Of a stretch of 64,000 nucleotides of DNA, positions 33,307 through 49,361 are shown one piece after another; the first letter of the stretch is position 1; the number at the start of each line of letters is the position of its first letter. The DNA lies in contig CP136064.1 in assembly GCA_032622095.1 (NCBI GenBank), forward strand, positions 130,497,605-130,561,604. Direction: 5' to 3'. The position numbers and the translations under genes are program-made. Below the pieces are notes generated by a model. That model did not search any database. It had not been told where the DNA came from and saw only the letters and a list, made by a program, of their open reading frames with translations. This DNA is from Siphonodentalium dalli (Eukaryota; Mollusca; Scaphopoda; Gadilida; Siphonodentaliidae).

Positions 33307-33312
33307 AATATA
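33307..33312. other. Polinton target-site duplication, left (AATATA)
   Basis: AATATA directly precedes the left terminus AGAAGAATAGG. The identical 6 bp follow the right terminus at 49,356-49,361. A 6-bp duplication is characteristic of Polinton integration. Confidence 0.95.
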
Positions 33313-34389
33313 AGAAGAATAGGGGTCTCGTTGCCTTCACATCTAAAAATAGAATCTTTGGGGTCTAAAATTGGTTGTACTAAAATATTCCCAAAATATC
33401 AAAAACCCAAAAATTATTTTTCCAAAAAAAAAATTTCAAAACTTTCAAAAATTATTTTTTCCAAAAAATTTCAAAATCCCAAAACTTCCAAAAAATTTTA
33501 AAACCCCAAAATTTCAAAAGAAAACATTTCAAAACCCTCAAAATTATTTCTCCAAAAAAAGTTTAAATAAAAAATTTATAACGAGTTTTCGGTTTCTGAT
33601 AATCTCGATATTAAAAAAATGTCGAATGTTAAATTATTTGCGCGTAATATCTTTCGTTATTTTTTTTGTTCAACCAATGTTTCAATGTATTTATTAATCG
33701 ATGTTTAGAAATAGCTTTATTGGACATTGTGACCATCGATATGAATGCATACATTCCAGTGTTTTATCGGACGCAGTTCATATAATTGTCATACCTGAAA
33801 ATAGACACCATTACTTTTACATAAATAATAAAGAGCGTTTATTCTTTACACTCTCTCTATCCCATATGACAGGTGTGTATTATCGTGAATTATTGGAAGT
33901 TTTGAGATGTACTATGTTGAATCACGAGCGGACAACCCCCAGAATGAATTGTCATATTCGCTGTACACGCAATCACACACGCGACATTGGTGGTAACAAT
34001 GTGTCTTTCACACCTTTGCTTTACCAAATGAATTATATTATTTCCCCGTTCACAGTTATATGCTATTCAGAAAACATATCGATTTAATGTCTGAACAAAC
34101 GGGTTAGTATCAATTAAGGTTGATAAACTGTGTCATTCACACGATAATTAGTTAGCCAAAACATGCAAACGTCCAGGACACTCCATTATAGAAATTGCTT
34201 TGATGACATTGTTATAACAACATGACGTAATAACCACTTATCACTCCAGTCACACTTACGATCATATACCGAAACTACAGGTAGCACCGGTGATGTAACA
34301 TTATATCACTGCTATTGTACCAATGATAGGTTCAGACATGTTCGATGTTTAGAAATAGATATTAACAATTGTTAAATGTGCAGGTGTTC
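33313..34389. repeat. Polinton left terminal inverted repeat
   Basis: Matches the reverse complement of 48,292-49,355 almost base for base; the inner end carries a small indel around 34,360-34,380. The outer part is a low-complexity block of CCAAAA/AATTATTTTTCC words (about 33,380-33,570). One AATAAAGAGCGTTTA motif lies at 33,827. Two open frames (33,371-33,697 and 33,701-34,087) recur in the right repeat simply because the repeats are identical. They have no recognisable domain and I do not call them genes. Confidence 0.95.
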
Positions 34390-34552
34390 TCAGCGGGGGG
34401 AACACAGGGTTATGTAATAATAACCAGTTAAACAACTAATGTTGCCTCGTCCGTACAAAACCAATTATCGGCCTATTCATACATTACGTTCATATATATA
34501 ATCTTATATAATGTTACATCATCCGGGCTTGCATATGTTCGGGATTTTATGG

Positions 34553-34561
34553 TATAAAAAT
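34553..34561 (+). promoter_or_regulatory. TATA box of the polymerase gene (putative)
   Basis: TATAAAAAT lies 80 bp upstream of the polymerase ATG at 34,633, just inside the left inverted repeat. Transcription would start near 34,580-34,590. The ATG context is AAAATGG, favourable for initiation. Confidence 0.5.
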
Positions 34562-34632
34562 ATAGATTACTAAGCTGTATTCCATATAGTGAATATACGC
34601 CGTTGTAATCACTACTCAGGACTTGTCGAAAA

Positions 34633-37600
34633 ATGGCTGAAGAAATAATGACACCTCTGACAGTGGAGGAAATTTATGAAATAGAATGTATTCTGCAAGA
34701 CATCGAAGAATACGACAAGGCTATCGTAGCTTATCAACTGGATGAAGATATAATTGAAGCATCTACGCTTTGTTCAGGAGATGACCCATGGCCGAACCAA
34801 ATCGGATACGGAGAACATGATGCGCCTAAAAATGATGTTAACAACTCACAACCCGGTACAGCTGGACCATCAGGATTACAAAACCGAGAAGACGAACATA
34901 CACCTCATCAAGAAGGAGCTGTAAAATCAGACAATCAAACAGCCGGCAGTTCTGATATTCAAATAACCGGATATAGCATTCGCAAAAGGAGTGAACGAAC
35001 CTTCGGAAACAATTTGGCAACACAGAGAACATATGAGATCAAATTAGATGAAATTTACAAAGAGAAAAAGTTAATCGACATATACAGGAATCTACATTCA
35101 ATGTTCGAGGACACTATTCAAAGAGCTCGTGGAAATTTGGCTGACAATGATCTTGGCAGAGTTATCATTCACCATGAGAGTTTGGACAACCCTATAGTAG
35201 TTCCGTTACAAACGTTGCAAACGTTAAATGCTAACACTGTGATTGACAGAATCGAACTCGTTTTGAACAGCAACCAAACACTGACTGTTAATCAAAGTTT
35301 CCGCATAGATATAGGCACCATCGAGTTACCTAAAGGCGGAGCACGGAGGAGGATAACTGCTTTACATAATGAAAGTGACAATCTAAGAAATAAAACATCG
35401 ATCGTTACGATTGAAAATACCGACAATATGTGTATGGCTCGGGCTATCGCCACATGTTGGTGTAAATTAAATATTTGCAGTCCTGATGAATGGCTAGAAA
35501 TAACACAGAATAGAGGAACCAGAAATAATTTACAACTCATCATGGAATACAGAAAAGTACCGATCAATTATTACAACAATCTGCTGTGCAAAAAACGTAC
35601 TGAACAAGGAAAATTAGCCAAAGCAATTAGTGTCATCGCAGGTGTATCAACAGACAGACCAGCCAGTTTAGCAGATCTAAAAGCATTCGAGGACACTCTG
35701 AATTTGACAATACTAGTCGTCAGTGCTAGACTGGGTAATAAATTCATTACCAGCGCGCCTACAGACGGTATAGAAAGACCCGTGATATATTTATATCTCA
35801 CTGCTAATGAACATTTCCACGCTATACAATCCATAACGGGATTCTTTAGCGCAATATATTTCTGTGTGCATTGTTTAAAACATTATTCAACCAAAGGAAA
35901 GCATTATTGTGAACACACCTGTTTCGTGTGTAAAAGTGATAAATGTGAACAAAGTGAAAACAAAGAACATTGTTCAGATTGTAATATGACGTGTATGTCT
36001 CATCAATGTTTCGTGCGTCATAAAGCAAAACCTATTAATCAAGCTTCGGGAGAAACGACAGCTCCTTGTCAAAAATGGTGGAAATGCTTGGACTGTACAA
36101 AAGTCATGGAGAGAGGGAAAAGACGTCCGAATCAACACGTGTGCGGAGAAACATTTTGTAGATCGTGTGACAAATACACAATGGGAGCACACGAATGTTA
36201 TGTAAGGGCCATACCTCCCGTTACTGATGATGAAAGAGCTAAATTCTGTTTCTTCGACTTCGAAACCATTCAACGCGATATATTGGAATGTTCTGAAGGA
36301 TATGCACCTTTACATACAAAGGATTGCCAGGACTGTAAAGAGGATCATATATGCAAGAAATGTGCTAAGTGTCAGGTGAGTCTTAACCTAATTGTAATAT
36401 ATATATGTAACACATTACAGTCGAAATCACGATAACGTAACGCTCTTTATTAAAGGCGCGCATAAGTAGAGACGCTCTTTCATTTTTAAAAATTATATTA
36501 GATTATCGCTGAACGCTCTTTAGCTGTTACCTCGCGTGTGAGATTACCATATAACAATAACATACTTGAATTCGACCAAAGTTAAGGGGGTCTCAATATT
36601 AAAATTCAACTGAGTCACAGATGTTAAACCGAGTAATTAACTTTTTTAATTCTTGACACATTGAAAAAATGTGTACCATATTTTTTTGTGAAAAGAGATT
36701 TTGTAATTGTTATATAGTAAACTAACATAATATATAATTGTTTTTACTTTATTGAACTTGATATCTGCGTGCTTGAATCGGCAATTATACAGGCTATATG
36801 TCGGATCATGATATACATTTATAATATTGACACGTAGATTGGAAGGAGTAATTTTTAGGATCAACCAACGAACAATAGTAATACGTCAACGCTCTTTATT
36901 AACGTTGAACCCATACCAAAACATTTTTTTTTTTTAATAATTATCTGAACAAAGTGTAGACGTTTTATTTTGTTTTTTATTATCGATAAAGCTAGAGGTT
37001 AAAACGTTCAATTATTACTTTTCAGAACTGTTTAAAAACATGGTGCGGAAAAGTCCAGCATACACCGAACTTCCTCGTCGCCCAAACAGCTTGCTACGAA
37101 TGCATGCATGAATCGTTGGAAGTGAAACCGAACTGTAGAAATTGCGGACCTCTATGTGATGCGTGTATCGACAGTGATGCGAAGAAGAAGAAGAAGAGTG
37201 ACCGAAATTTATGTTCGGATACATGCGGACTCCGAGAGGTTATATTTAGCGGTCCTGATACCGGTGAAAAGTTTGGAAAATGGTTATTCTCGGAACAACA
37301 CAAGGGATTCATAGCACTGGCTCACAACTTCAAGGGTTACGATGGATATTTTCTCATGGAATATCTCATTGATCAATCATTGAGACCCAAAGTTATATAT
37401 AATGGATCCAAATTGATGTACCTATACGTGGAAAAAGATCTTCATATCAAAGTACTGGACAGTCTCAGCTTTCTACCAATGAAGTTGGCACTGTTACCGA
37501 AAACTTTCGGTCTGGATGGCGAGAAAAAAGGATGGTTCCCGCACTTTTTCAATAAATCAGCCAACCAGAATTATGAAGGACCCTATCCGGATGCCAAATA

Positions 37601-39845
37601 TTACGGCGCTGATTATATGAGTGTGGCTGAACGAAAAGACTTCACGAAATGGCACGCTGCTCAAACAAATGCAGTTTTCATCTTCAAGAAAGAATTATCG
37701 GATTATTGTCGTAGTGATGTCAATATTTTGAGACAAGCTTGCATAAAATTCAGAACCCACATCATGAATGCGACTGGAAATATACAACCCGTAATTGACG
37801 AGTTTTCTGGCGATATGAAGTTCAAACTGGTTGGTGCGGTTGATCCATTCCAATACGTTACAATCGCATCGGTATGTATGGGTATATTCAGAACGAAATT
37901 CGTCGACGAGGAATGGAGAGTGCGTCTAAGTACCGAAGGGAAAACGTGGCTTCCTGCTAAATGTAAAGATGGAACTTTGTCTATTTTATACAAAGGTGAA
38001 TGGGTTCAAGAAACAAAACTTGAAGATGAACGCGGCGTCCAAATTCGTGACAAAGAATTTCTCAAATCACAGATAGCTCGAATCCCCAAGACATATAAAG
38101 ATCAATACAGCAAAAGTTCTATTCAATGGCTGGAATGGATGATGTTCAAAGACAAAGTTCACATAACTCACGCATTGAACGGTCGTGAAAAGAAACTCGA
38201 TGATGCAAAGTACAGATTGGATGGCTATTGCGAAGAATTAAACACGGCATTCGAATTTCACGGATGTCAATTCCATGGATGTGAACTTTGTCTGAGTCAC
38301 GATAGAGACGTAGTCAAGAATCCGATAACCAACCAGACACCTAATGAATTATACGGACTCACACAGAAAAAGAAGTTTATAGAAAGTCGAGGCATGAAAT
38401 ATGTGTGCATTTGGGAACACGAGTTCGTCGCTGCTCGAAAGACTAATCCGGAGCTTCGTGACTTCATCGCTAGCTTAGACATTGTTGAACGGCTAGAGCC
38501 TAGAGACAGTTTCTTCGGCGGCAGAACGAATGCAACTAAATTACACTACAAAACTGCCGTTGGTGAGAAAATACATTATTTTGACTTCACGTCGCTGTAT
38601 CCAAGTGTGCTCAAATACTCTCGCTACCCGATTGGACACCCGAAAATCATTTTGGTCGATGACATTACCGAGCTTAAGGATTACTTCGGAATAGCGCAAG
38701 TCAAGATTTTACCACCTAATGGACTCTATCACCCCGTATTACCGTATCGATCCGAAGGTAAACTGAAGTTTCCACTGTGCAGGACTTGTGCTGATAATGA
38801 AAATCAACGACCTTGCACGTGTACGTGCCAACAGAGAGCTATTACCGGTGTTTGGTGTATTCCTGAACTGGAGACAGCTGTCAAAGTGGGATACAAGATT
38901 CTCAAAATATATGAAATATACCATTGGACCGAAACGTCAGACTATAGCCAACAAAATGGATTATTCACGGAATATATAAACACATTCTTAAAGTTCAAGC
39001 AGCAGGCTAGCGGTCTTCCGGATTGGATAAAATCTAACGAAGACATGGATAAATACATCACAGCGTATAAAGACAACGAAGGTATATTACTGGACAGAGA
39101 AAGCATCGAAAAGAATCCAGGACTGAGGCAAATCAGTAAGCTCATGCTCAACTCATTTTGGGGGAAGCTAGGCCAAAACCAGAATTTCAAACAGACCGAG
39201 TATTTCCATGAATCGGAACAAGACAATCTATTCCAGCTCATTTCAAATCCAATGAAACAAATGGAAAATTTTCATGTCATAACTGATGACATTCTTCAAA
39301 TGGAGTGGACCTATCGAAAAGACTGTGTGCCTTGTGGAGCAGCGAATAACATATATTTGGCCACATTCACGACGTGCCACGCTCGATTAATGCTATATGA
39401 AGTTATTCATTCCTTGGACAGAAGAGTATTATATTACGACACGGATAGTTGTGTATTTAGCAGCACTGAGGATCAAATTAATCCCCCACTGGGCGACTAT
39501 TTGGGACAACTGACCAGCGAGCTAGATCCTGATGAATACATCGAAGAATTTGTTTCTGGAGGCCCCAAGAATTACGCTTATCGAACAAATAAAGCTAAAG
39601 AGACGTGTAAAGTTCGGGGGTTCTCTTTGAACTTTGAAAATTCACAGTTCATCAATTTCCAGACGATTAAAGAGCTGTTAGAATCTGGAAGCACAGTGCC
39701 CATCACCACAACCAATCCAAGGAAAATATGCAGATCGAAAGGAAAAAGAAAAATATATAACAGATCTGAGGACAAAGAGTACCGAGTTGTTTATACCAAA
39801 CGCAGACGATTGGATAACATGGATACACTGCCATATGGATATTGA
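34633..39845 (+). CDS. pPolB: protein-primed family B DNA polymerase (exons 34,633-36,375 and 37,026-39,845)
   Basis: Replicates the element from its ends using a protein primer. Two exons, joined in phase 0, give about 1,520 residues. The N-terminal ~400 residues include TDNMCMARA (Asp264, Cys267) and EHFHA (His396), a spacing reminiscent of an OTU-like papain fold; that is inference. A Cys/His-rich region follows (about 405-580). Exonuclease motifs: FFDFETI (Asp542, Glu544), HNFKGYD (Asn682) and YCRSD (Tyr808, Asp812). Polymerase motifs: DFTSLYPS (motif A, Asp1101), KLMLNSFWGK (motif B, from Lys1286) and YYDTDS (motif C, Asp1386 and Asp1388). All catalytic residues are present and the frame is intact. 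Upstream are a TATA box and the left inverted repeat. Downstream is a separate plus-strand unit (PC4-like, TBP-like). Confidence 0.97.
36376..37025 (+). other. polymerase intron, 650 bp, phase 0
   Basis: Donor CAG|GTGAGT after ...KCAKCQ and acceptor TTACTTTTCAG|AAC. The downstream frame opens with NCLKTWCGK and runs 26 codons before the first internal Met of the second open frame. The intron is AT-rich and holds four copies of the AACGCTCTTTATT motif (about 36,438, 36,471, 36,511 and 36,887). Confidence 0.9.
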
Positions 39846-40240
39846 ACGAGGTACGTAATATATATAATTTAATCGTCTATATTTGATCAAGGTTGTAATG
39901 AGAGTGTAAACATTCGATCGATGGTAGTTATCGGATTATACTAAGACTTGTTCAAACACGTTCGATGTTAGATAACATCGAGCGTGTATGAACACGTATT
40001 ACTATAAACGTATGGCCGTGATTGGTCAATTTATCCAAGGTGTCCATTTTTTCGATCTATAAAATGCTACCCGATCCAGTTCACAATTACAAATTCGGTA
40101 GTCCTATACTGTGCGTGTGAAATATTCTATACAGGTTAGTTATGAATTAGTTTTTTTTTTTTCTATCATTACATTTTTACCTCCTGTACAATCTCATTTT
40201 GGTTTATACTTAAACCAAAAACAACTATGTTTTTTTTTAT
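39846..40240. other. intergenic region downstream of the polymerase
   Basis: Holds a promoter for the next unit (CCAAT box and TATA box) and a candidate splice donor at 40,135. A donor-like GAG|GTACGT occurs a few bases after the polymerase stop codon. No clear AATAAA was seen near the stop. Confidence 0.5.
40021..40064 (+). promoter_or_regulatory. CCAAT and TATA boxes of the PC4-like/TBP-like unit (putative)
   Basis: ATTGGTC (inverted CCAAT) at 40,021-40,027 and TATAAAA at 40,058-40,064, 30 bp apart. Transcription would begin near 40,085-40,095, upstream of a candidate 5'-UTR donor ACAG|GTTAGT at 40,135. This is a canonical RNA polymerase II promoter layout. Confidence 0.55.
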
Positions 40241-40801
40241 TTATTTTCTCAACGAAGAGTCACCATAATTCCAGATTATTCCGAATGACCAGATTAATTC
40301 ATTCTCTAATTCTGAAATATATTTCGATTTACTTGTAGAAATGTAATCCAAAATCACGCCGCTGTTAAGTATTTGTTCAATCGTGAACAGTGTACACGGT
40401 TCACGGAGAATGATATATCCGTGAATTATTGTCACTTCTTCAAAACTTCTCTGATTGAAAACCCAGTCTCGGTATTCTGCAAATCTCACAAAGTTATCTC
40501 CAACAAGTTCACGAATGTCATGTATTTTGTTTTTAGGAACGCCTCTAAATACCCAGCGATTTGAAAACATTTGATTCAATATATCTTGTAAGAAATCAGT
40601 TTCAAATTCAGACCTAGCAATCAAAGATTTCAATCGTTGTACAGGAAAATATCCTTCATCTATATTCTTCAGTATTATTTTAATTTCTCTTATAAACCAA
40701 TTGTGTAGTAGTTGTTTTTTTATTTCTGGATTTATAGTTGACATTTCAATTAGCTGATTGTATATTTTCTCCAGTATTTCTGCGGGTAGTATTCTCTCCA
40801 T
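40241..40801 (-). CDS. F-box-like protein
   Basis: 186 residues from the ATG at 40,801. Further upstream the frame continues into a proline/arginine-rich minisatellite translation that is very unlikely to be coding. The N-terminus, MERILPAEILEKIYNQLIEM, has the LP.EIL..I...L pattern of an F-box, which docks to SKP1 in SCF ubiquitin ligases (family knowledge). The remaining ~140 residues are helical and charged, including NRWVFRGVPKN and HDIRELVGDNFVRF; no substrate-binding repeat is recognisable. It is the only minus-strand gene on the polymerase side and lies inside the putative intron of the PC4-like gene. It is not a core Polinton gene. If real, it could redirect host ubiquitination. The F-box call rests on one motif. 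Confidence 0.5.
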   Translation of the reverse strand: MERILPAEILEKIYNQLIEMSTINPEIKKQLLHNWFIREIKIILKNIDEGYFPVQRLKSLIARSEFETDFLQDILNQMFSNRWVFRGVPKNKIHDIRELVGDNFVRFAEYRDWVFNQRSFEEVTIIHGYIILREPCTLFTIEQILNSGVILDYISTSKSKYISELENELIWSFGIIWNYGDSSLRK

Positions 40802-40846
40802 AATGAACTGACTCAATGACTCAATTTTCTTATTCTTATTGAGTAT

Positions 40847-41001
40847 GCGGGCGGGGCGGGCCTCCCCTCCCCCAGGGGCGGGCGGGGCTCCCCCTCCCCA
40901 GGGCGGGCGGGCCTCCCCTCCCCAGGGCGGGCGGGCCTCCCCCTCCCCAGGGCGGGCGGGCCTCCCCTCCCCAAGGCGGGCGGGCGGGCGGGCCTCCCCC
41001 C
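40847..41001. repeat. GC-rich minisatellite, ~25-bp unit, about six copies
   Basis: Repeats of GGGCGGGCGGGCCTCCC followed by CTCCCCA, very GC-rich against an AT-rich element. G- and C-runs are regularly spaced, so one strand could form G-quadruplexes and the other i-motifs. It sits directly upstream of the F-box-like gene and inside the putative 5'-UTR intron of the PC4-like gene. Confidence 0.9.
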
Positions 41002-41116
41002 ACACCCAACATCCACCAAACGCATGAGCGGACTCCTTTCGGACTTTTGTATTCTCGATGTGTAACTGATAAGTAATGTTTTGTTTTCTTATTTTCCAGG
41101 TTCAAAATAAAAAACA

Positions 41117-41728
41117 ATGACTGATCAACCCGATGTTGAAGGAAACCAACGGACTGAAACCAACGAGAGGGCGTTCCATCCACAATGCTTAGCCCCGTTA
41201 GGAAATGACATTTTCCTATTTGACGGCCGATTCCAGGGAAATCTGTATATACACATACGAGAGTGCGGTGAAAGTTCTGCGGGCCAAAAATTTTCGACAA
41301 AATCTGGAATAACATTAAATCTAAGGAGATTCAAAGAGTTGAAATCTTACTTAGCAGATATACATCAAGAAGTGGTCAGTTATCGTACCGGTGAAGACGA
41401 TGTATTCATGAGACGTCATATCGGAGGGAATTTCTTCATTACGATAAAGAGCGGCATCCCGCGTGTTGACATTCGCAGGTATTGGCTGCCTGAACATTCA
41501 GATGATTTGTGTGCAACCAAATACGGAATATCTCTGACATTCGACCAATTTGAAGAACTAGTTGGAGCTATATTCGTCCTGTGTGCTAATATTCCTGAAA
41601 TTGATCAGACTGTGCAGTGCTATTTGACCGACGATCACCAAAACCAGGAAGGATCTTTAAGATGTATGGAATGCTGCCCCAACGGCGATAGAACGTGTTT
41701 GATTAACCGGATGCAGACATTGATCTAA
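41117..41728 (+). CDS. double PC4 (p15 coactivator)-like protein
   Basis: 203 residues. Two successive copies of the PC4 ssDNA-binding fold are visible. Copy 1, residues ~32-90: FDGRFQGNLYIHIRE, then KSGITLNLRRFKELKSYLADI. Copy 2, ~97-165: GGNFFITIKSGIPRVDIRRYW, then KYGISLTFDQFEELVGAI. Each has the four-strand sheet pattern followed by 'GI(S/T)L..(Q/R)F.EL' and a helix. In cellular PC4 this domain binds ssDNA and stimulates RNA polymerase II initiation; two fused copies would mimic the natural dimer. The C-terminus has a small cysteine cluster (CMECCPNGDRTC). Its stop codon is 11 bp from the start of the TBP-like gene, suggesting a shared transcript. The assignment is by eye. Confidence 0.75.
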   Translation: MTDQPDVEGNQRTETNERAFHPQCLAPLGNDIFLFDGRFQGNLYIHIRECGESSAGQKFSTKSGITLNLRRFKELKSYLADIHQEVVSYRTGEDDVFMRRHIGGNFFITIKSGIPRVDIRRYWLPEHSDDLCATKYGISLTFDQFEELVGAIFVLCANIPEIDQTVQCYLTDDHQNQEGSLRCMECCPNGDRTCLINRMQTLI

Positions 41729-41739
41729 ACATTACTCCT

Positions 41740-42264
41740 ATGATGCTACGAATAACTAATGTCGTATGTTCTGCAGATTTGAACTGTTCTATTAATCTAA
41801 GGGATTTGACACTCGGCTGTTCGAACATTGAATACAATTCCAAAAAGTTTAGCGGAGTTGTATGGAAACATTCTAAATTCGGTGGATGTTGCCTCGTGTT
41901 TAACACGGGTAAAATCGTTGTTAACGGGCTTTCTGATAGTGTCAAACAGACACGAGTTCGATTGCGTCGGTACGCTCAACATATTCAAAAATGTGGTTGG
42001 CGAGTGAGATTAAATTCCATAAAAATTTTGACAATGTCTGCATTTTGTCAGTTAAATGGAAAACTTGACTTAAACGTTTTAGTGAAACTTATGGAATGTT
42101 CTTACGAATTAGAGCTGTTCCCTGCGGCAATGTTCAGACGTGAGAAAATACATTTTACATGCTTTCATAATGGAAAAATTGTGATTACGGGCATTAAAAG
42201 TGAAAAGCAGATGTTAAATATTGTATATCCTACCATATGTGAACTTGAATTACTTTCAGAATAA
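41740..42264 (+). CDS. TATA-box-binding protein (TBP)-like protein
   Basis: 174 residues, about the size of a bare TBP core with no N-terminal extension. Two direct repeats form the saddle: repeat 1 with ITNVVCSADL, LRDLTLGCSNIEYNSKKFSG and NTGKIVVNG (57-63); repeat 2 with SYELELFPAA (121-130) and NGKIVITGIKSE (144-155). Phenylalanines occur at the four positions where TBP inserts side chains into the minor groove (F37, F54, F127, F142; the first pair 17 apart as in TBP). This strongly suggests real TATA binding. The element's own genes have TATA boxes (34,553; 40,058; 48,079). It follows the PC4-like gene by 11 bp and ends in an overlapping AATAAA. TBP is not among the core Polinton genes. 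It is probably host-derived or acquired from another virus, and strongly diverged. Confidence 0.85.
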   Translation: MMLRITNVVCSADLNCSINLRDLTLGCSNIEYNSKKFSGVVWKHSKFGGCCLVFNTGKIVVNGLSDSVKQTRVRLRRYAQHIQKCGWRVRLNSIKILTMSAFCQLNGKLDLNVLVKLMECSYELELFPAAMFRREKIHFTCFHNGKIVITGIKSEKQMLNIVYPTICELELLSE

Positions 42265-42265
42265 A
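42260..42265 (+). terminator. poly(A) signal AATAAA of the TBP-like gene
   Basis: AATAAA overlaps the TBP-like stop codon (GAATAAAT). The next 200 bp contain an AT microsatellite and T-rich stretches and then the end of the convergent capsid cluster. Confidence 0.6.
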
Positions 42266-42439
42266 TATATATATGTATCGATTATCTATTTTTTTCATTC
42301 GGGGGGATGGCTCACATACCTTTGTTTTTTGGCTTTTGACGAAACAAACAAAAACAATAGATTTTTTTGTTTGTTTTGACAACAGACCTAATACCACCTC
42401 ACCGGACTCTCTCCACAGACCCCCCACCCCCACCCTCTC

Positions 42440-42480
42440 AACCCAGTCATATACATATATATATATATATATATATATTT
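42440..42480. repeat. (TA)n microsatellite between the convergent gene blocks
   Basis: About 13 TA dinucleotides within CATATACATATA...TATATTTT. Lies in the ~330-bp spacer separating the plus-strand TBP-like gene from the minus-strand protease gene. Confidence 0.9.
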
Positions 42481-42534
42481 TCCCAGTCATACATATGATA
42501 ATATAAGAACGATAAATGATTGTATTTACAATAT

Positions 42535-42540
42535 TTTATT
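42535..42540 (-). terminator. poly(A) signal AATAAA of the minus-strand capsid cluster
   Basis: TTTATT on the plus strand (AATAAA on the minus strand), about 57 bp past the protease stop codon. It is the first such signal after the nine-gene block, consistent with a common 3' end. Confidence 0.55.
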
Positions 42541-42596
42541 TATATACATAATATAATTTAAAGAGTGTTTCTCTCGTTGTCGCTAATGAAGAGCGT

Positions 42597-43043
42597 TTAC
42601 AGAATATATTTCAACATAAAATCCTTAATAATTAAATCATTATACATATAATTATTGGCACTGAAACGTCTCATTATATTTTCTAGACGGTATCCACACA
42701 GTTTATAGAATGCAAAGTATATGCAATAGGGACCGCATATATTAGAACCCTGTAATCTGTAGGCATTGCACTCGTAACGAGGTCCATTCAATAACAACAC
42801 GTGTTTAAATCGTCCGTTGTAACACTCGGGTTTTAATCCCATAGGGTCGAAGAACTCTGATGCGTTATGTTCCTGGAATGTCATCAATATCCAGTGGCGT
42901 CCAGGTTGGCTACTCTCGTCTGTGTTAACTATATACATCCGGGGATATTGGATATAAAGAGGTAATTTGTCTATGGGACAAACATCTATCTCATTATGGT
43001 TTGTGAAACTATTTATCGCCCTCATGAGTCCGCGTGTATTCAT
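42597..43043 (-). CDS. PRO: adenain-like cysteine protease (virion maturation)
   Basis: 148 residues, a compact member of the adenovirus-protease/Ulp1-like family found in Polintons; the family cleaves capsid and core precursors during maturation. The catalytic set is visible in order: His50 in GRHWILM, Asp66 in EFFDPMG, Gln98 in YRLQGS and Cys103 in NICGPYC. The ATG overlaps the major capsid stop codon by one base (TAATG), the tightest possible junction. Last gene of the minus-strand cluster. Confidence 0.92.
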   Translation of the reverse strand: MNTRGLMRAINSFTNHNEIDVCPIDKLPLYIQYPRMYIVNTDESSQPGRHWILMTFQEHNASEFFDPMGLKPECYNGRFKHVLLLNGPRYECNAYRLQGSNICGPYCIYFAFYKLCGYRLENIMRRFSANNYMYNDLIIKDFMLKYIL

Positions 43044-44305
43044 TATTCAATGCAAACTTTACGACTCTCGTCAACTTTGAGAAAGGCAGGAAATTTTGCG
43101 TAAACGATTACAGTACAATTGTCTTTCAAAGCCGATGAGAATTTAATCTCGAGGCGTGTGTGACCTTTGTGCGGTATGACCCTGTCGTGATTAATTCCTT
43201 GTGGGTTTATCCGATATATGCAATAACCTTTCGCATAATCCTCATAAGTAATATGAACGGCTTTTCGTTTCGCATCTTTTATTATCGTATTGTAAGCTTC
43301 TACATATTCCTTACTGGTAAAGTTCGGTTGGAGTGCTTGGGCGGGCATAGACTGCCCGTTGACGTAAAATCCGACGAAGTTGCATCCAAAAGTCGCAAAG
43401 TTGAACGGGTTCTTATCGCGTGAACCGCTTTCAGCCTTTGATGATACTAAGCCAATAATACAGCTACTGGGTACGTTTCCTTGAAATAGATTATCTTCTC
43501 CCAAACTGAATGCACCTTTTGACACTGTATACGTCTTTATGATAGATTTTGAAAAAGGATAACACGCGTTCTTTTTCTTGAGTGACTCAGTATGACTGAG
43601 TAATACACCGGGGTTAACTTTCACAGTGGCTAGTCTCAAATTAGCTTCCTGTATTTTCAACTTGTATGTCTCAGTGGTTCCCGCATACATCAGTCTAAAA
43701 ACATCTCTCGTCTGCCAGAATTTTAACGTGAGTGGGAGACCATTTAGTAGTAATTTGTCCTGTTGGAAGAAGTCAAGCTGAATTGATCCCATAATATCCA
43801 TTATTTGACTAGTACGGGTTGTTTTGGACCTGTAATACAGGCCAGAGTTCCCGCTTTTCGAATCTGCCAGGTCCATACCACCTGCCGTGTCCTTTTCGAA
43901 CGCTTGTCCATGTAGCTGTTCCTTACGTTCAGTTTCTAAGAGTACATCGAAATATGCTTTGTATGGATAATTCGGCCCGACTTGACTCACGGGAACTTGC
44001 TGTATATTCAAATCGACCTGCGAAAATATTGAATGTAGGGGTGCATTTATCAGACCCACATCGTCATTAACGGTTAGAGCCGAACCATCTTGCTTGGTTA
44101 TTTTGAGTTTGAGGAGTAGCAATGTCCGTTTGAGGTCCATGTAGGTTGTGGCCATGGTGGGAATATTGAACTCTAAAGCTGCAGTGTCTGTCAGCTGATT
44201 CACGGGTCTGTAGTTTATCCATTCTGTCGCTTGTATTCCGCTGTCAACCGCGGGCGATTCAAATAATGCCAATTTAGAGGTATGGTACTCTCTGTATTCA
44301 TTCAT
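43043..44305 (-). CDS. MCP: major capsid protein (double jelly-roll)
   Basis: 420 residues, hexon-like subunit forming the capsid shell. Recognised by the Polinton capsid layout: an N-terminal strand region with FNIPTMATTYMDLKRTLLLL, then APLHSIFSQVDLNIQQ, YPYKAYFDVLLETERKEQL, a mid-region GSIQLDFFQQDKLLLNGLPL, and late YINGQSMPAQ-like FYVNGQSMPAQAL. It lies between the small basic protein (4-bp ATGA overlap at its start) and the protease (1-bp overlap at its end). The frame is intact. Confidence 0.9.
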   Translation of the reverse strand: MNEYREYHTSKLALFESPAVDSGIQATEWINYRPVNQLTDTAALEFNIPTMATTYMDLKRTLLLLKLKITKQDGSALTVNDDVGLINAPLHSIFSQVDLNIQQVPVSQVGPNYPYKAYFDVLLETERKEQLHGQAFEKDTAGGMDLADSKSGNSGLYYRSKTTRTSQIMDIMGSIQLDFFQQDKLLLNGLPLTLKFWQTRDVFRLMYAGTTETYKLKIQEANLRLATVKVNPGVLLSHTESLKKKNACYPFSKSIIKTYTVSKGAFSLGEDNLFQGNVPSSCIIGLVSSKAESGSRDKNPFNFATFGCNFVGFYVNGQSMPAQALQPNFTSKEYVEAYNTIIKDAKRKAVHITYEDYAKGYCIYRINPQGINHDRVIPHKGHTRLEIKFSSALKDNCTVIVYAKFPAFLKVDESRKVCIE

Positions 44306-44631
44306 GGTTTATCGAACCAGGTGGTTTTCACTTTCTTAGGGTTATGAGCCAAATCGTTAGGTAACACCCTCTTATTGTTTTTTTTTGACGCCTTACGTGC
44401 TTGTGTCAACTTATTTTCTGCAACTTCGGCTTTGGCCATTTCAATCGCTTGCGCTATGGGTGTCACTACGTTAATATGCGGTTTTAGAACGTCTTCTTCT
44501 TCACTATCGCTATTTTGAGTTTTGTCAATAAAGTAGCGACCCTCATTATCTGGCGTTAACTTCCCATTAATCATGTCCCTGAAATGTTTTCTCCACTTTT
44601 CAATATCGGTTGGAATATACGTGATCGACAT
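44302..44631 (-). CDS. small basic-tailed protein in the capsid cluster
   Basis: 109 residues, function unknown. The N-terminus has an aromatic/charged segment YIPTDIEKWRKHFRDMINGK, the centre an acidic patch SDSEEED, and the C-terminus is lysine-rich (RKASKKNNKRV, NPKKVKT) and ends TTWFDKP. It overlaps the penton-like gene by 32 bp and the major capsid gene by 4 bp (ATGA). Position and charge suggest a virion core or capsid-associated protein. This is inferred from context. Confidence 0.75.
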   Translation of the reverse strand: MSITYIPTDIEKWRKHFRDMINGKLTPDNEGRYFIDKTQNSDSEEEDVLKPHINVVTPIAQAIEMAKAEVAENKLTQARKASKKNNKRVLPNDLAHNPKKVKTTWFDKP

Positions 44632-45037
44632 GTTTCTTCAGATGTAGTGTACAGGTCACTCTGTTTTCTGCATTTATTTTAGAAAGTTTATCGCCTCTTA
44701 TAAAAATCCTGAGACGCTGAAGTTTATCCTGTCTTACGTTTATGTAGAATGAGTCCTCAAAACTCCGCCAATGACCCGTATCACGTGTGTCTCTCTTTAT
44801 AACCCGGAGGATGGGGGATGATGTGTCGCAGGCTATTGATTCTCCACATATGTCCGAACAAATATATAATAAATCCGTGTCTATATGGTCAGTTATGTTT
44901 ATGTCTTTCAAACAACATAACCACGCCCCTTCCAATATTAATACACCAGGTAACTCTATTGTGAAGTCGAGAGGACGATTATCTGGATATTTATCTATGG
45001 AATCGTCGCTAGTCAGGTACAGATAATAATTATCCAT
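44600..45037 (-). CDS. mCP: penton-like minor capsid protein
   Basis: 145 residues. The N-terminus reads YLYLTSDDSIDKYPDNRPLDFTIELPGVL then LEGAWLCCLKDI, the typical opening of the single jelly-roll minor capsid proteins of Polintons, which form the pentameric vertices. It is shorter than many members of the family, so only the jelly-roll core may be present. Four bases separate its ATG from the stop codon of the membrane/PC4-like gene, and its 3' end overlaps the next gene by 32 bp. Confidence 0.7.
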   Translation of the reverse strand: MDNYYLYLTSDDSIDKYPDNRPLDFTIELPGVLILEGAWLCCLKDINITDHIDTDLLYICSDICGESIACDTSSPILRVIKRDTRDTGHWRSFEDSFYINVRQDKLQRLRIFIRGDKLSKINAENRVTCTLHLKKHVDHVYSNRY

Positions 45038-45041
45038 ATGA

Positions 45042-45482
45042 CTAGTTTCTATTTTGTTTCAAATGAGAATCAATGTTCATCTCTTCTCTTATAGTTTTAT
45101 CAACATCACTGAATATATACTTGAAGGCAGACCACTGGTTATACGGAATACTTATAATCGCGGGAGTGTTATTCACAACTCGCCTAATGCGTGTATAAAT
45201 GCGCCCTTGATTATTACATAATGTAACAGTAATGTTTGATCGTATTGTCCACTTTTTCACGAACCCACAGGGGTGTTGTTCGTAATCATGGGGGCGTGAC
45301 TCATTCGTATGACGTAATTCATAGTCCCCCGTCTGACGTGGTATCTTCTTTGGAACTATTATAACCGGTAGTGACAGAGTTATTACCATAATAGTAATTC
45401 CTATCCATTTAAGGAGATTCATATGTAGACGACCGCGTTCTGTTTGAAACATATTCGTCAAGGTATCTGTTCTATTATTCAT
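45042..45482 (-). CDS. membrane-anchored PC4-like protein
   Basis: 146 residues. One clear transmembrane segment (residues ~24-44, LKWIGITIMVITLSLPVIIV) is followed by a soluble domain. Residues ~76-134 (WTIRSNITVTLCNNQGRIYTRI, then ISIPYNQWSAFKYIFSDVDKTIRE) match the PC4 pattern: a small beta sheet, then 'I.I...QW...K..(S)D.D..IR' and a helix. PC4 domains bind ssDNA, so this could tether element DNA to a membrane, or sit in a virion membrane with the domain reused for another role. It lies between integrase and penton-like genes within the cluster. The membrane segment is clear; the PC4 assignment is by eye. Confidence 0.65.
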   Translation of the reverse strand: MNNRTDTLTNMFQTERGRLHMNLLKWIGITIMVITLSLPVIIVPKKIPRQTGDYELRHTNESRPHDYEQHPCGFVKKWTIRSNITVTLCNNQGRIYTRIRRVVNNTPAIISIPYNQWSAFKYIFSDVDKTIREEMNIDSHLKQNRN

Positions 45483-45518
45483 GATTGTAATGGTTTCCCC
45501 TCGGATAGCTTGCTCTTA

Positions 45519-46628
45519 TTAATTTTGATATCTGTCGACATCAGACTCTAAAATCCATGAATTAAATTTGTCAGGCCATGAATGCCAGTGCACCAGGACT
45601 TCAGTTTGACCCTTTCGTTTCCTCTTTTTGACAATTTTATCTATTCTGTAAACTGTTTCGTCATCAACGCGCACCCCTTGAAGTTCTGACTCGTAGAAAG
45701 CACCCTCAATGTTTTCATCCAAGAAATCTGTCAATGTATACAAGGGTATGTTCTGCCTGTAAAACCTCTTAGTCACTTTGAACAACTCTCCAGTCCATTT
45801 CTGAGAATATTCTCGGTCAAAAACTGCTTTGGTGTGTGATATTCTAACGATATCATTTACATTGTATTTGAACTTTTTCTTCAATTTACTTTTAACACCT
45901 CCCTTCTGTCTTATTAACCACTGATCGAGACGAGACTCATCTTCATTCTCAACAGTTATGGAGTCAGGGGTGGTGCCTAACGAACGATGTATTGTATGGT
46001 TATAACTTTTCACAATATCTTGTAGAATGTCGATATATCTAGCATTATTATGCTTTATCATATAACGTGAAATCTTCTGCTTTATAGTTTTTATGACCCG
46101 TTCCGAATAATTGGCTTTCATTTCGTTTTGCGTAAAAATTTGAGATATATGAAGACCCTTAAGGTAACTTTTGACCCGTTTGTTTGTGAACTCCGAACCG
46201 CGATCCGTTCGGAGGACGCGAGGGGTTCTTCCACCTTCAAATATATGTTTCATAGCATTGATCACATTAATTGCAGTTTTCCTCTTTATAGCTTCACACC
46301 ATAACTTCCTAGAAAAAATGTCAATCATTACTAACACGTAGGTGTAATTGTCGTTGTCTTTGGAAACATCATTCATATCCATGAGGTCTCCATCCCATTG
46401 ACTGTCAGAAGCGTTTACAATAACACGAGACCTCGGGAATTTTCGTCTAACACTTTTTGTCAGGGAATAACTTTCATGATTTTGTAGCCACGCCACAATC
46501 TCGCGCTTGGAAATGTTGTGCTTATTTTCAGATTTTACAGTCTGATGCAACTTTGTAGCTCCTGAGTACGATGCGGGGTGACCCGGATTAAAATAAATTG
46601 AACTCAAATAATCTTTCCAATCGGCCAT
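45519..46628 (-). CDS. INT: Polinton integrase with C-terminal chromodomain
   Basis: 369 residues from the ATG at 46,628. An in-frame GTG three codons upstream is not a plausible eukaryotic start. The rve-type catalytic core contains QWDGDLMDM (Asp81), LRTDRGSEF (Asp142) and NYSERVIKTIK (Glu176), a D,D(33)E spacing. The C-terminus is a chromodomain: VYRIDKIVKKR, VHWHSWPDKFNSWI. The enzyme inserts element ends with a 6-bp staggered cut, matching the AATATA duplication. The chromodomain may steer insertion to marked chromatin. The gene starts 5 bp after the upstream stop codon. Confidence 0.95.
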   Translation of the reverse strand: MADWKDYLSSIYFNPGHPASYSGATKLHQTVKSENKHNISKREIVAWLQNHESYSLTKSVRRKFPRSRVIVNASDSQWDGDLMDMNDVSKDNDNYTYVLVMIDIFSRKLWCEAIKRKTAINVINAMKHIFEGGRTPRVLRTDRGSEFTNKRVKSYLKGLHISQIFTQNEMKANYSERVIKTIKQKISRYMIKHNNARYIDILQDIVKSYNHTIHRSLGTTPDSITVENEDESRLDQWLIRQKGGVKSKLKKKFKYNVNDIVRISHTKAVFDREYSQKWTGELFKVTKRFYRQNIPLYTLTDFLDENIEGAFYESELQGVRVDDETVYRIDKIVKKRKRKGQTEVLVHWHSWPDKFNSWILESDVDRYQN

Positions 46629-46633
46629 ATTGT

Positions 46634-47002
46634 TCACAGTGATATCCAGCGTTTGTTCTTTATCTTGGTCAGTTTACCGGCGATTATACCCGGAGGTCTA
46701 GATATTTCACGCTTAACCCCTCTTATTTTCTTTTTTCTTTGCTTGGTATGTGTCTTTTTCGATGTGTTAACTTCTGATTTTTGGATTGCATCCTGAGGTT
46801 CAGTCGTTTGAACTGTATTAACAATCTGATTATTCATCGGGTCCATTTCTTTATCCATTTCATCGGAATGGCTACTATTGTTTGCCGAGATGTCGCTGTG
46901 TTCAATGTTAGACTCCGATGAAACTTTTTTGTGTTCACTTTTTTCAGTGTACCTCATATATCTTTCATACGGGATCAAAACAGTTTTATTCACAGACTCC
47001 AT
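46634..47002 (-). CDS. small hydrophilic protein upstream of the integrase
   Basis: 122 residues from the ATG at 47,002, which overlaps the preceding stop codon (TGATG); an upstream GTG was disregarded. The N-terminus has VLIPYERYMRY, a short conserved-looking motif; the middle is low-complexity and acidic (SDISANNSSHSDEMDKEMD); the C-terminus is very basic (KQRKKKIRGVKREISRPPG) and ends KNKRWISL. I associate this layout with a recurrent Polinton protein of unknown function. Probably a DNA- or capsid-associated virion protein (inference). Confidence 0.75.
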   Translation of the reverse strand: MESVNKTVLIPYERYMRYTEKSEHKKVSSESNIEHSDISANNSSHSDEMDKEMDPMNNQIVNTVQTTEPQDAIQKSEVNTSKKTHTKQRKKKIRGVKREISRPPGIIAGKLTKIKNKRWISL

Positions 47003-47325
47003 CACAAAAACTGTTTCAATTTAGGTTCAACGATGTTCAACATCAAAGTAATGGCGGTTGAGTGATTATTCACACTTTTTCTTTTCCTCAACAAACTCAC
47101 AGATTTATCACCCAAGAATATATAAAATGATTTATATCGCCGTAATTTAGCTTTTTGTTGAACTGTAACTGTTAAACTATCATGTAGTAAATTGATCGTA
47201 ATTTCAACCAGAACTTTCAACTGATTATTAGTTATCGATGTCAATAATGCGTTTCGTTGAGATCTTGATTGGGTTGATGTCAATAGTCTGACAAAATTCA
47301 ACTCATTACGTAATAATCGACTCAT
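47002..47325 (-). CDS. small basic helical protein after the ATPase
   Basis: 107 residues with ALLTSITNNQLKVLVEITINLL, then KAKLRRYKSFYIFLGDKSVSLLRKRKSV. The combination of a helical N-half and a KSVSL(L)RKRK-type basic motif recurs in Polinton-like elements as an uncharacterised gene beside the packaging ATPase. Its stop overlaps the start of the next gene by one base. Function unknown. Confidence 0.75.
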   Translation of the reverse strand: MSRLLRNELNFVRLLTSTQSRSQRNALLTSITNNQLKVLVEITINLLHDSLTVTVQQKAKLRRYKSFYIFLGDKSVSLLRKRKSVNNHSTAITLMLNIVEPKLKQFL

Positions 47326-47365
47326 TTTATCGTCGCGACTCAGCTCCGATACTGTCCCCTTCTTA

Positions 47366-48031
47366 TTACGTAGTAGGTACGTAAATTATAGGGTCTTGGT
47401 TGGGAAACACGTCTGTTCGTAGCCTGTATTTATCCTCAGTGTGAGGGGACATATCTATTATAAGATACGCAAATGGTTTCTTCATACAATCCTTGTATGC
47501 CTCAATGAGTACTTTAGATTTACCGGGATACAATTGTCTACCCAATGTGGAAATTTGTGATCCATCCCTCAAATTTTTGAATAAAATTAGATATCCTGTG
47601 TTTAAGGCTATAGTTCTCGCAGCCTTGCCTTGTGCGTATAAATTTTGTGAAATAAACAGCACCGAAAGACAGCGATGATGAGTTTGCTGCGTAAATAGTG
47701 TTTCAATCTCTTTTTGGTCAATAATGCGAAGCATCAAGTCGTCTAATATTAACATATTATGTTTACCGTCAGCAAATTCTTCGATTTCTGTTTGGGTAGG
47801 TAATCCTTGATGCATGACCAAATTTTCGATTGATGATTCAATTTCATCATAGAAATTTTGATAAATACCGTAACAGTACATTATTTTCTTAGGTGGATCT
47901 CTAGAATACATTCCATTAAGATTTTGCAGGAATCTGTAGACCCATCTCGTCTTACCAGAACCAGTTGGTCCGGTGATGCAAATACTAGAACAAGGTTCAA
48001 ATGGTATGGAGCTATGGTTAATTGGACCCAT
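47366..48031 (-). CDS. ATP: A32/FtsK-type genome packaging ATPase
   Basis: 221 residues. Walker A is GPTGSGKT (residues 21-28) and Walker B is MLILDD (93-98), followed by a sensor-like SVLFISQNLY. This is the HerA/FtsK-superfamily ATPase that pumps DNA into capsids in Polintons and related viruses. It is the first gene of the minus-strand cluster, behind a TATA box at 48,079-48,086 and an A-rich leader (AAAAAAAAAATGGG). Confidence 0.93.
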   Translation of the reverse strand: MGPINHSSIPFEPCSSICITGPTGSGKTRWVYRFLQNLNGMYSRDPPKKIMYCYGIYQNFYDEIESSIENLVMHQGLPTQTEIEEFADGKHNMLILDDLMLRIIDQKEIETLFTQQTHHRCLSVLFISQNLYAQGKAARTIALNTGYLILFKNLRDGSQISTLGRQLYPGKSKVLIEAYKDCMKKPFAYLIIDMSPHTEDKYRLRTDVFPNQDPIIYVPTT

Positions 48032-48078
48032 TTTTTTTTTGTGTTCACTGTGTCCTATTTATTAGTAGCTATACAGTT

Positions 48079-48086
48079 CTTATATA
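48079..48086 (-). promoter_or_regulatory. TATA box of the nine-gene minus-strand cluster (putative)
   Basis: On the minus strand GTATATAAGAACTGTATAG places TATATAAG about 50 bp upstream of the ATPase ATG. A second TTATAAGAACTGTAG lies about 100 bp further upstream, so the promoter is partly duplicated. Gaps between the downstream genes are at most 40 bp, so this is the only roomy promoter position. Confidence 0.5.
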
Positions 48087-48291
48087 CATCATAAGTAAAC
48101 ATTTGTTATGGCTGTTGTAAATGAATTACCAGGATGACACTGCAAGCTATAATATTATAAAAACCTACAGTTCTTATAACATCATTGGTTTTGGTAAGTG
48201 ATGTGAAGGTGTTTGGTGGATGTTGGGGGTTGGGTGTGGGCTGGTATTATCACGTTGGTCTGTGATTGAGTGTACAAAATCTTTTGTCAAG

Positions 48292-49355
48292 TGAACACCT
48301 GCACATTATGTATTTTCTAAACATCGAACATGTCTGAACCTATCATTGGTACAATAGCAGTGATATAATGTTACATCATCGGTGCTACCTGTAGTTTCGG
48401 TATATGATCGTAAGTGTGACTGGAGTGATAAGTGGTTATTACGTAATGTTGTTATAACAATGTCATCAAAGCAATTTCTATAATTGAGTGTCCTGGACGT
48501 TTGCATGTTTTGCCTAACTAATTATCGTGTGAATGACACAGTTTATCAACCTTAATTGATACTAACCCGTTTGTTCAGACATTAAATCGATATGTTTTCT
48601 GAATAGCATATAACTGTGAACGGGGAAATAATATAATTCATTTGGTAAAGCAAAGGTGTGAAAGACACATTGTTACCACCAATGTCGCGTGTGTGATTGC
48701 GTGTACAGCGAATATGACAATTCATTCTGGGGGTTGTCCGCTCGTGATTCAACATAGTACATCTCAAAACTTCCAATAATTCACGATAATACACACCTGT
48801 CATATGGGATAGAGAGAGTGTAAAGAATAAACGCTCTTTATTATTTATGTAAAAGTAATGGTGTCTATTTTCAGGTATGACAATTATATGAGCTGCGTCC
48901 GATAAAACACTGGAATGTATGCATTCATATCGATGGTCACAATGTCCAATAAAGCTATTTCTAAACATCGATTAATAAATACATTGAAACATTGGTTGAA
49001 CAAAAAAAATAACGAAAGATATTACGCGCAAATAATTTAACATTCGACATTTTTTTAATATCGAGATTATCAGAAACCGAAAACTCGTTATAAATTTTTT
49101 ATTTAAACTTTTTTTGGAGAAATAATTTTGAGGGTTTTGAAATTTTTTCTTTTGAAATTTTGGGGTTTTAAAATTTTTTGGAAGTTTTGGGATTTTGAAA
49201 TTTTTTGGAAAAAATAATTTTTGGAAGTTTTGAAATTTTTTTTTTGGAAAAATAATTTTTGGGTTTTTGATATTTTGGGAATATTTTAGTACAACCAATT
49301 TTAGACCCCAAAGATTCTATTTTAAATGTGAAGGCAACGAGACCCCTATTCTTCT
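48292..49355. repeat. Polinton right terminal inverted repeat
   Basis: Reverse complement of the left repeat, ending ...CCCCTATTCTTCT. The same low-complexity block (AATAATTTTTGG words) lies at the outer side and one TAAACGCTCTTTATT motif at 48,828-48,842. Confidence 0.95.
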
Positions 49356-49361
49356 AATATA
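49356..49361. other. Polinton target-site duplication, right (AATATA)
   Basis: Identical to 33,307-33,312. Confidence 0.95.

Follow-up and report, generated by a model that had tools for sequence, protein, structure and literature searches.

Few eukaryotic proteins are as conserved as the TATA-binding protein (TBP). To our knowledge, viral TBPs belong to large viruses, many of which have their own polymerase, or to viruses of archaea. Excerpts of published reports add a TBP gene in 59% of mirusvirus genomes (Gaia et al., 2023; PMC10132985) and TBPs in other endogenous elements of an alga (PMC10675990). In the open-access literature we found no Polinton paired with PC4 or with the words TATA-box-binding; what it holds on Polintons together with TATA-binding protein or TBP concerns, in the excerpts seen, no Polinton TBP, and a text search of PMC11071308 met neither TBP, TATA nor transcription. 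We show here that an element classified as a Polinton in the scaphopod Siphonodentalium dalli carries genes for a PC4-like protein and a TBP. The element occupies positions 33313 to 49355 of a stretch of 64,000 nucleotides (the window; contig CP136064.1 of assembly GCA_032622095.1, positions 130,497,605 to 130,561,604 of the forward strand), and all coordinates below are those of the window. We consider it reasonably probable that its TBP is an old, element-adapted protein of eukaryotic type that serves the promoters of the element through the host RNA polymerase II (Pol II).

The two genes form a unit on the strand of the polymerase gene, with an open reading frame (ORF) of 203 amino acids for the PC4-like protein (41117 to 41728) and one of 174 amino acids for the TBP (41740 to 42264), separated by 11 bp; coordinates, frames, lengths and spacing had been claimed in an earlier note on this DNA and were confirmed on the sequence. 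The TBP matches PF00352 (E 5e-32, 110 bits against a cut-off of 22.9 bits) in two stretches, which correspond to both TBP repeats, and contains the motifs GKIVVNG and GKIVITG, all as that note described. Its best sequence match in the PDB has an E value of 1.7e-24, the saddle fold, named beforehand as a check, is predicted with high confidence, and the structure alignment covers 173 of the 174 residues. The PC4-like protein matches PF02229 (E 2.9e-13, 49.6 bits against a cut-off of 25 bits), also in two stretches, in line with the predicted presence of two PC4-type domains in one chain. A single-sequence structure model of this protein is of low confidence (predicted local distance difference test, pLDDT, 37.8), its best PDB sequence match reaches only E 0.026, and a homologue search returned 89 candidates, none of them significant. 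The presence of both proteins in the element is well supported.

Both genes are found in many copies. In the host genome (2.23 Gb, 9 contigs) a first look gave 455 TBP candidates; the best 150, which were scored, all match with 97-100% identity, and 148 of them are free of stop codons. PC4 and TBP occur together in all 36 pieces fetched, which were chosen by their TBP, with PC4 gapped or partial in some. Among the matches listed, 127 of 150 ATPase copies (97-100% identity) have a TBP on the opposite strand at 5.2-8.8 kb (median 5,673 bp) and 23 have none at that distance; of the 166 TBP places used, 129 have an ATPase in that position; shifting the TBP places by 100 kb gave 0 ATPase-TBP pairs. 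Copies of the element in the host genome number well over a hundred, and conservation of the TBP gene in relatives, on which the earlier note had made its claim depend, is seen in many copies and in related proteins. The TBP gene is intact and maintained by selection. The ratio of nonsynonymous to synonymous polymorphism (pN/pS) is 0.29 for TBP (44 rows, 37 distinct, 0 with a stop) and 0.24 for PC4 (35 rows, 30 distinct, 4 with a stop), values obtained from loci that were picked by TBP similarity and not by PC4, which may favor intact TBP copies, and from copy pairs that are not independent. The starting set was 44 loci plus the window. For TBP one locus (L072) was excluded because of a gap, so that 43 and the window remained; for PC4 10 of the 44 were excluded (nine gapped, one of these also partial, and one partial but ungapped), so that 34 and the window remained. 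Among the copies read, L075 is the most diverged (protein identity 92% for TBP and 90% for PC4); its ratio of nonsynonymous to synonymous substitution rates (dN/dS) is 0.37 for TBP and 0.18 for PC4. Eleven further diverged copies give 0.16-0.35 and 0.16-0.33, respectively, and each comparison rests on a small number of differences (7 to 51). In this set PC4 carries a stop in 3 of 12 copies. A gene of 186 amino acids on the minus strand (40241 to 40801), antisense to the unit, is also under purifying selection: it is present in 11 of 12 copies, with dN/dS of 0.12-0.34 and a stop in one of the 11. It has no family match; by eye, the start of its protein looks F-box-like.

It is extremely unlikely that the TBP gene is a recent chance capture from the host or a decayed passenger. 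Recent capture is contradicted by the tree, by a difference in introns and, together with decay, by dN/dS values well below 1. The host has a conventional TBP on contig C6 in at least 5 coding pieces, the three longest of which (34-61 amino acids) are 91-92% identical to human TBP; this gene is split by introns, whereas the element gene is not. Encephalitozoon TBP is 82% identical to the first piece of the host TBP and 34-36% to the element copies. A single-sequence search found 13 proteins with 39-58% identity to the element TBP and a profile search found 243 relatives at E <= 1e-8, of which the best 120 were listed; 101 of 122 family members are 169-176 amino acids long. Named relatives among the matches listed come from the clam Mercenaria mercenaria and from bins of bivalve symbionts (Thiodiazotropha, Sedimenticola, Solemya velum symbiont), the latter taken for host DNA. 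Four clusters of relatives hold 66, 84, 198 and 288 member sequences, sizes as expected of repeats. One clam member is labelled 'TATA-box-binding protein-like 1' by NCBI, as a TBP paralogue of the host; genes of this kind, it seems, can pass for the host's own. A first tree has 49 rows, among them 32 of the 122 family proteins and, with two near-duplicates dropped, 10 of the 12 viral-contig loci. In it the family is one clade (support 100/100); its sister is the TBP of locus L001 (97/90), the cellular eukaryotic TBPs branch off next (99/96), and the ten viral-contig TBPs fall outside this group. A second tree, with the host TBP added, draws on 28 family proteins out of 122, L075 and four of the 12 viral loci. 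Its 29 family rows again form a single clade (100/99), whose branch has a length of 1.31 changes per column; the L001 link is at 92/84, and the host TBP clusters with human TBP (100/95). In favor of recent capture, a clade of the family with the host TBP was not formally rejected (approximately unbiased test, p-AU 0.085). The ultimate origin is likely an old capture from some eukaryote. L001, the sole locus from a scan of bacterial and archaeal genomes, is a contig of 3.4 kb that was assigned to a Zixiibacteriota bin; it is probably a misbinned eukaryotic or viral sequence. Its ATPase is 37% identical over 209 amino acids to that of the window, and its TBP, 1.35 kb off, is 25% identical; from these two genes, with little else visible on the contig, it is classified as an independent Polinton-like element with a TBP. 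Scans of viral contigs with P0002, the family alignments A1/A2, the L001 TBP, the window ATPase and the two-ATPase alignment A4 returned no relatives, and a scan with a general TBP alignment returned 12 loci. By eye, L005, L006, L007 and L011 look archaeal-virus- or cell-like, with the TBP near polymerase-subunit-like or methylase-like genes.

Residues and flanking signals are consistent with a function in transcription initiation. For a survey of the 122 family sequences we used human numbering from a 339-amino-acid PDB chain and took the roles of the positions (intercalating phenylalanines, contacts to DNA, TFIIB and TFIIA) from the TBP literature. The phenylalanines at the four minor-groove positions noted earlier are F37, F54, F127 and F142, which align with human F197, F214, F288 and F305, and are kept in 120, 122, 118 and 102 of the 122 members, the fourth being His in 17. 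At the TFIIB-contact positions E284 is kept in 100, E286 in 118 and L287 in 103 members (E123, E125 and L126 in the window copy). In repeat 1, N167 is invariant (122/122) and the Val contact is kept in 117. The earlier note had also placed TATA boxes before the polymerase, the PC4-TBP unit and the capsid cluster, and this holds: from the left end to the TBP stop, TATAAAA occurs on the plus strand only at 34553 to 34559 (polymerase) and 40058 to 40064 (PC4-TBP unit), and the minus-strand cluster, which runs from the ATPase gene to the protease gene, has TATATAA upstream at 48086 to 48080. The promoter module of the PC4 unit consists of TTGGTCAATTTATCCAAGG with the TATA box below it, and is followed by a putative 5'-leader intron (40135 to 41099, CAG/GTTAGT...TTTTCCAG). 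Of 36 copies tried, 20 span the box, which is kept in 19, and 30 span the splice donor, which is kept in 28. In six diverged copies the box of the PC4 unit was readable in five and kept in all five; the minus-strand start was found in two, with TATATAAG in both, and the polymerase start in three, with TATACAAA, TATATAAA and, in the third, a different upstream part. Polymerase-side pieces of three copies (L081, L090 and L093) contain a near copy of the PC4 module (TTGGTCAATTTATCCAAGGTGTC ... TATACAG, with TATACAG in place of TATAAAA) that points away from the polymerase, the orientation in one of the three being taken from the TBP strand; these near copies indicate that the element re-uses its promoter module. 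In a piece from the opposite end of a further copy (L092) we observed a stretch resembling the polymerase promoter. The displaced modules in these four copies indicate ends arranged unlike those of the window.

An AATAAA, a poly(A)-type signal, overlaps with the stop of the TBP gene and, together with the splice-like signals, points to nuclear transcription by host Pol II. No RNA polymerase was matched among the 14 element ORFs scanned with Pfam, and this, the splice-like and poly(A) signals and the three TATA boxes favor the idea that TBP and PC4 could steer host Pol II to the TATA boxes of the element. It seems plausible that the element TBP would bind the TATA boxes before the three units and bend the DNA through its four phenylalanines, and that bound TBP would recruit host TFIIB via the kept contact residues and then Pol II. 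In this way transcription of the element might be independent of host promoters driven by TFIID or take precedence over them, and the PC4-like protein might assist promoter opening or coat single strands in replication. The analysis shows the genes, their linkage and amplification, the selection on them, the predicted TBP fold and the TATA motifs; DNA binding, bending, recruitment of TFIIB and polymerase, timing and the role of PC4 are steps that we infer. Of the proposal in the earlier note that the element brings its own initiation factors, the two genes stand, whereas the direction of Pol II to the TATA boxes would be a deduction from sequence, and the contacts of repeat 2 are changed compared to an ordinary TBP.

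Several observations weigh against TATA-directed transcription by the element TBP. TATA motifs are common in AT-rich DNA, and the polymerase promoter lacks a TATA motif in 1 of 3 readable diverged copies. The TBP would be the second ORF of a two-ORF message, and its translation would call for reinitiation or splicing. In repeat 2, N257 is replaced by Thr in 119 of 122 members and V259 by Ser in 117 (yeast N159 and V161), so that the symmetric Asn/Val minor-groove pair is present in repeat 1 but not in repeat 2. In repeat 1, V220 and T222 are Asn/Gln in 92 and 116 members, with V and N in the window copy. Of the TFIIA positions, A184 is Ala in only 12 members and E191 is Arg/Lys in 107; N189 is Asn in 99 and R205 is Arg/Lys in 102, and the window copy keeps the N and the E and has Ser at R205. 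These changed repeat contacts may weaken or alter canonical TATA binding. Moreover, other Polinton families of the host genome had no TBP or PC4 match in any of 13 pieces from 10 elements (five 3-kb pieces at the expected distance, eight around the ATPase only); not every Polinton needs a TBP, and the gene looks like a lineage trait. As judged from the alignment, the change of Asn and Val in repeat 2 is divergence inside the TBP fold family with no sign of another family; the L001 TBP, outside the family clade, retains both residues. Several DNA contacts changed in concert while the intercalating phenylalanines were kept, which suggests an altered promoter preference rather than loss of function. 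The same pattern bears on the idea that the TBP acts mainly against the host, competing for TFIIB, TAFs or host TATA boxes and thereby lowering host transcription. The TFIIB contacts are mostly kept, while the DNA contacts of repeat 2 and some of the TFIIA contacts are changed, as such a decoy would allow; however, a pure decoy would have no need for the strongly conserved phenylalanines, and TATA motifs precede the element's own units, and we regard this idea as unlikely. A more specific form of service to the element's own promoters is possible, and we put it forward tentatively: a TBP with asymmetric, altered DNA contacts (the usual Asn and Val in repeat 1, a re-specified repeat 2) and a single-chain double PC4 may together read the re-used module, load host Pol II and bypass TFIID as a private promoter system, which would be old, being shared with clams and a second, diverged Polinton-like lineage.

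An equally possible role for PC4 is single-strand binding in replication of the element. PC4 domains bind single-stranded DNA in general, strand-displacement replication needs a single-strand binding protein, and the unit lies on the polymerase strand; the TBP would then be the only transcription factor and merely co-expressed, which is compatible with its proposed role at the element's promoters. On the other hand, the pairing of PC4 and TBP in 36 of 36 copies fits a joint role in initiation, as does the known cooperation of PC4, TBP and TFIIA, and a weak match (E 0.0015) leads to a phage family described as 'transcriptional regulator'. We give the replication role slightly less than an even chance. 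Insertion sites bear on a further idea, in which the integrase is guided by the TBP to promoters or TATA-like DNA. Of 20 junction pieces, 14 contain the left end (it was not found in the other 6, and two more are truncated in the flank); together with the window these make 15 junctions, of which 13 have 6 or more flanking bases. All 13 hexamers are different, which marks them as separate insertions. The window copy is inserted in AATATA, the junctions share a weak pattern (A in 9/13 at -5, T in 7/13 at -4, a purine in 13/13 at -3), and tethering via TBP-containing factors is known for some retrotransposons. However, TATA occurs in only 1 of the 13 hexamers, that of the window itself, 39 of 78 flanking bases are A/T compared to 63% in the window outside the element, and the weak pattern may be a preference of the integrase, so that targeting by the TBP is very improbable.

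The carrier element spans 16,043 bp between two AATATA duplications (33307 to 33312 and 49356 to 49361), as obtained from terminal inverted repeats (TIRs) and target-site analysis; the 6-bp duplication was examined on both sides for the window copy only. The TIRs (33313 to 34355, plus; 48314 to 49355, minus) start with AGAAGAATAG, are about 1.04 kb long and agree in 1044 of 1062 aligned columns, the last 10-20 of which lie beyond the repeat. By these ends, the duplication, the B-family polymerase, the RVE integrase and the ATPase, the element is classified as an integrated Polinton. The gene for the protein-primed DNA polymerase begins with a putative coding exon (34633 to 36375, plus; no Pfam match) that ends in CAG before GTGAGT, a splice-consensus boundary. 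An intron (36376 to 37025, GTGAGT...TTTTCAG) probably splits the reading frame, the flanking frames agreeing in phase by their coordinates, and the remainder (37026 to 39845; ORF listed from 37104) matches PF03175 (E 1.1e-50). The leader intron of the PC4-TBP unit, inside which the antisense gene lies, also contains a GC-rich minisatellite-like stretch (about 40845 to 41000) that opens long, spurious-looking reverse frames. On the minus strand follow a marginal adenovirus-type protease (42597 to 43043; PF00770, E 3.8e-4, 20.6 bits against a cut-off of 21.3 bits), a 420-amino-acid protein without significant family match (43043 to 44305), which by Polinton gene order is a candidate for the double jelly-roll major capsid protein, a 145-amino-acid protein without family match at the minor-capsid position (44600 to 45037), whose role would follow from that position, and an integrase (45519 to 46637; PF00665, E 4.8e-15) with a chromodomain (PF00385, E 8.2e-8). 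The packaging-type ATPase (47366 to 48031) was called by position and by its similarity to the L001 ATPase, P-loop Pfam scores all being below cut-off. A first look gave about 2,900-3,000 ATPase candidates (the best 150 were scored in each search), a number that points to several diverged Polinton families in the host, and some ATPase genes are paired head-to-head about 1-3 kb apart (L099-L106). Same-strand TBP copies about 2.8 kb apart (C2:85770832, 85773599 and 85776370; C2:195210394 and 195213263) look like partial tandem duplications.

If transcription of the element by its own TBP holds, a compact 16-kb virus-like element of animals re-wires initiation by Pol II through a general factor of its own, and its TBP would be a natural altered-specificity variant for study. 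With Polintons/Mavericks and adintoviruses it shares the TIRs, the 6-bp duplication, the protein-primed polymerase, the integrase with chromodomain and the packaging ATPase, the protease by marginal match only, and it adds the PC4-TBP unit. Eukaryotic TBP, the TFIID subunit, has the fold, two repeats, four phenylalanines and TFIIB contacts in common with the element TBP, which is 30% identical to human TBP in the structure alignment but lacks the N-terminal extension, shows two short deletions within repeat 2 among the alignment rows listed and carries T and S at the N and V contacts of that repeat. TBP folds are also encoded by giant viruses (Nucleocytoviricota), including the B263R homologue of abalone asfa-like virus. 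In a structure search of viral proteins, giant-virus TBPs were among the best matches (template modelling (TM) score on the query 0.77 for a named and 0.80 for an unnamed protein); matches at E <= 0.001 are 8-22% identical to the element TBP, and none of the best 50, many of them unlabelled, is labelled Polinton or adintovirus. Many giant viruses bring their own RNA polymerase, in contrast to this element, in whose 14 scanned ORFs none was recognized. Archaeal viruses likewise carry TBPs (Haloarcula virus HJTV-2; IMG/VR loci L003, L006, L007, L009, L013 and L014, which branch with archaeal TBP at 95/79), and these serve archaeal-type polymerases. Mirusviruses, like this element, are DNA virus-type carriers of TBP in eukaryotes, but they are an unrelated group with a herpes-type capsid and genomes of hundreds of kb. 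TBPL1/TRF2 and TRF1 are likewise diverged TBPs. TRF2 is described as lacking the intercalating phenylalanines, whereas the element family keeps them.
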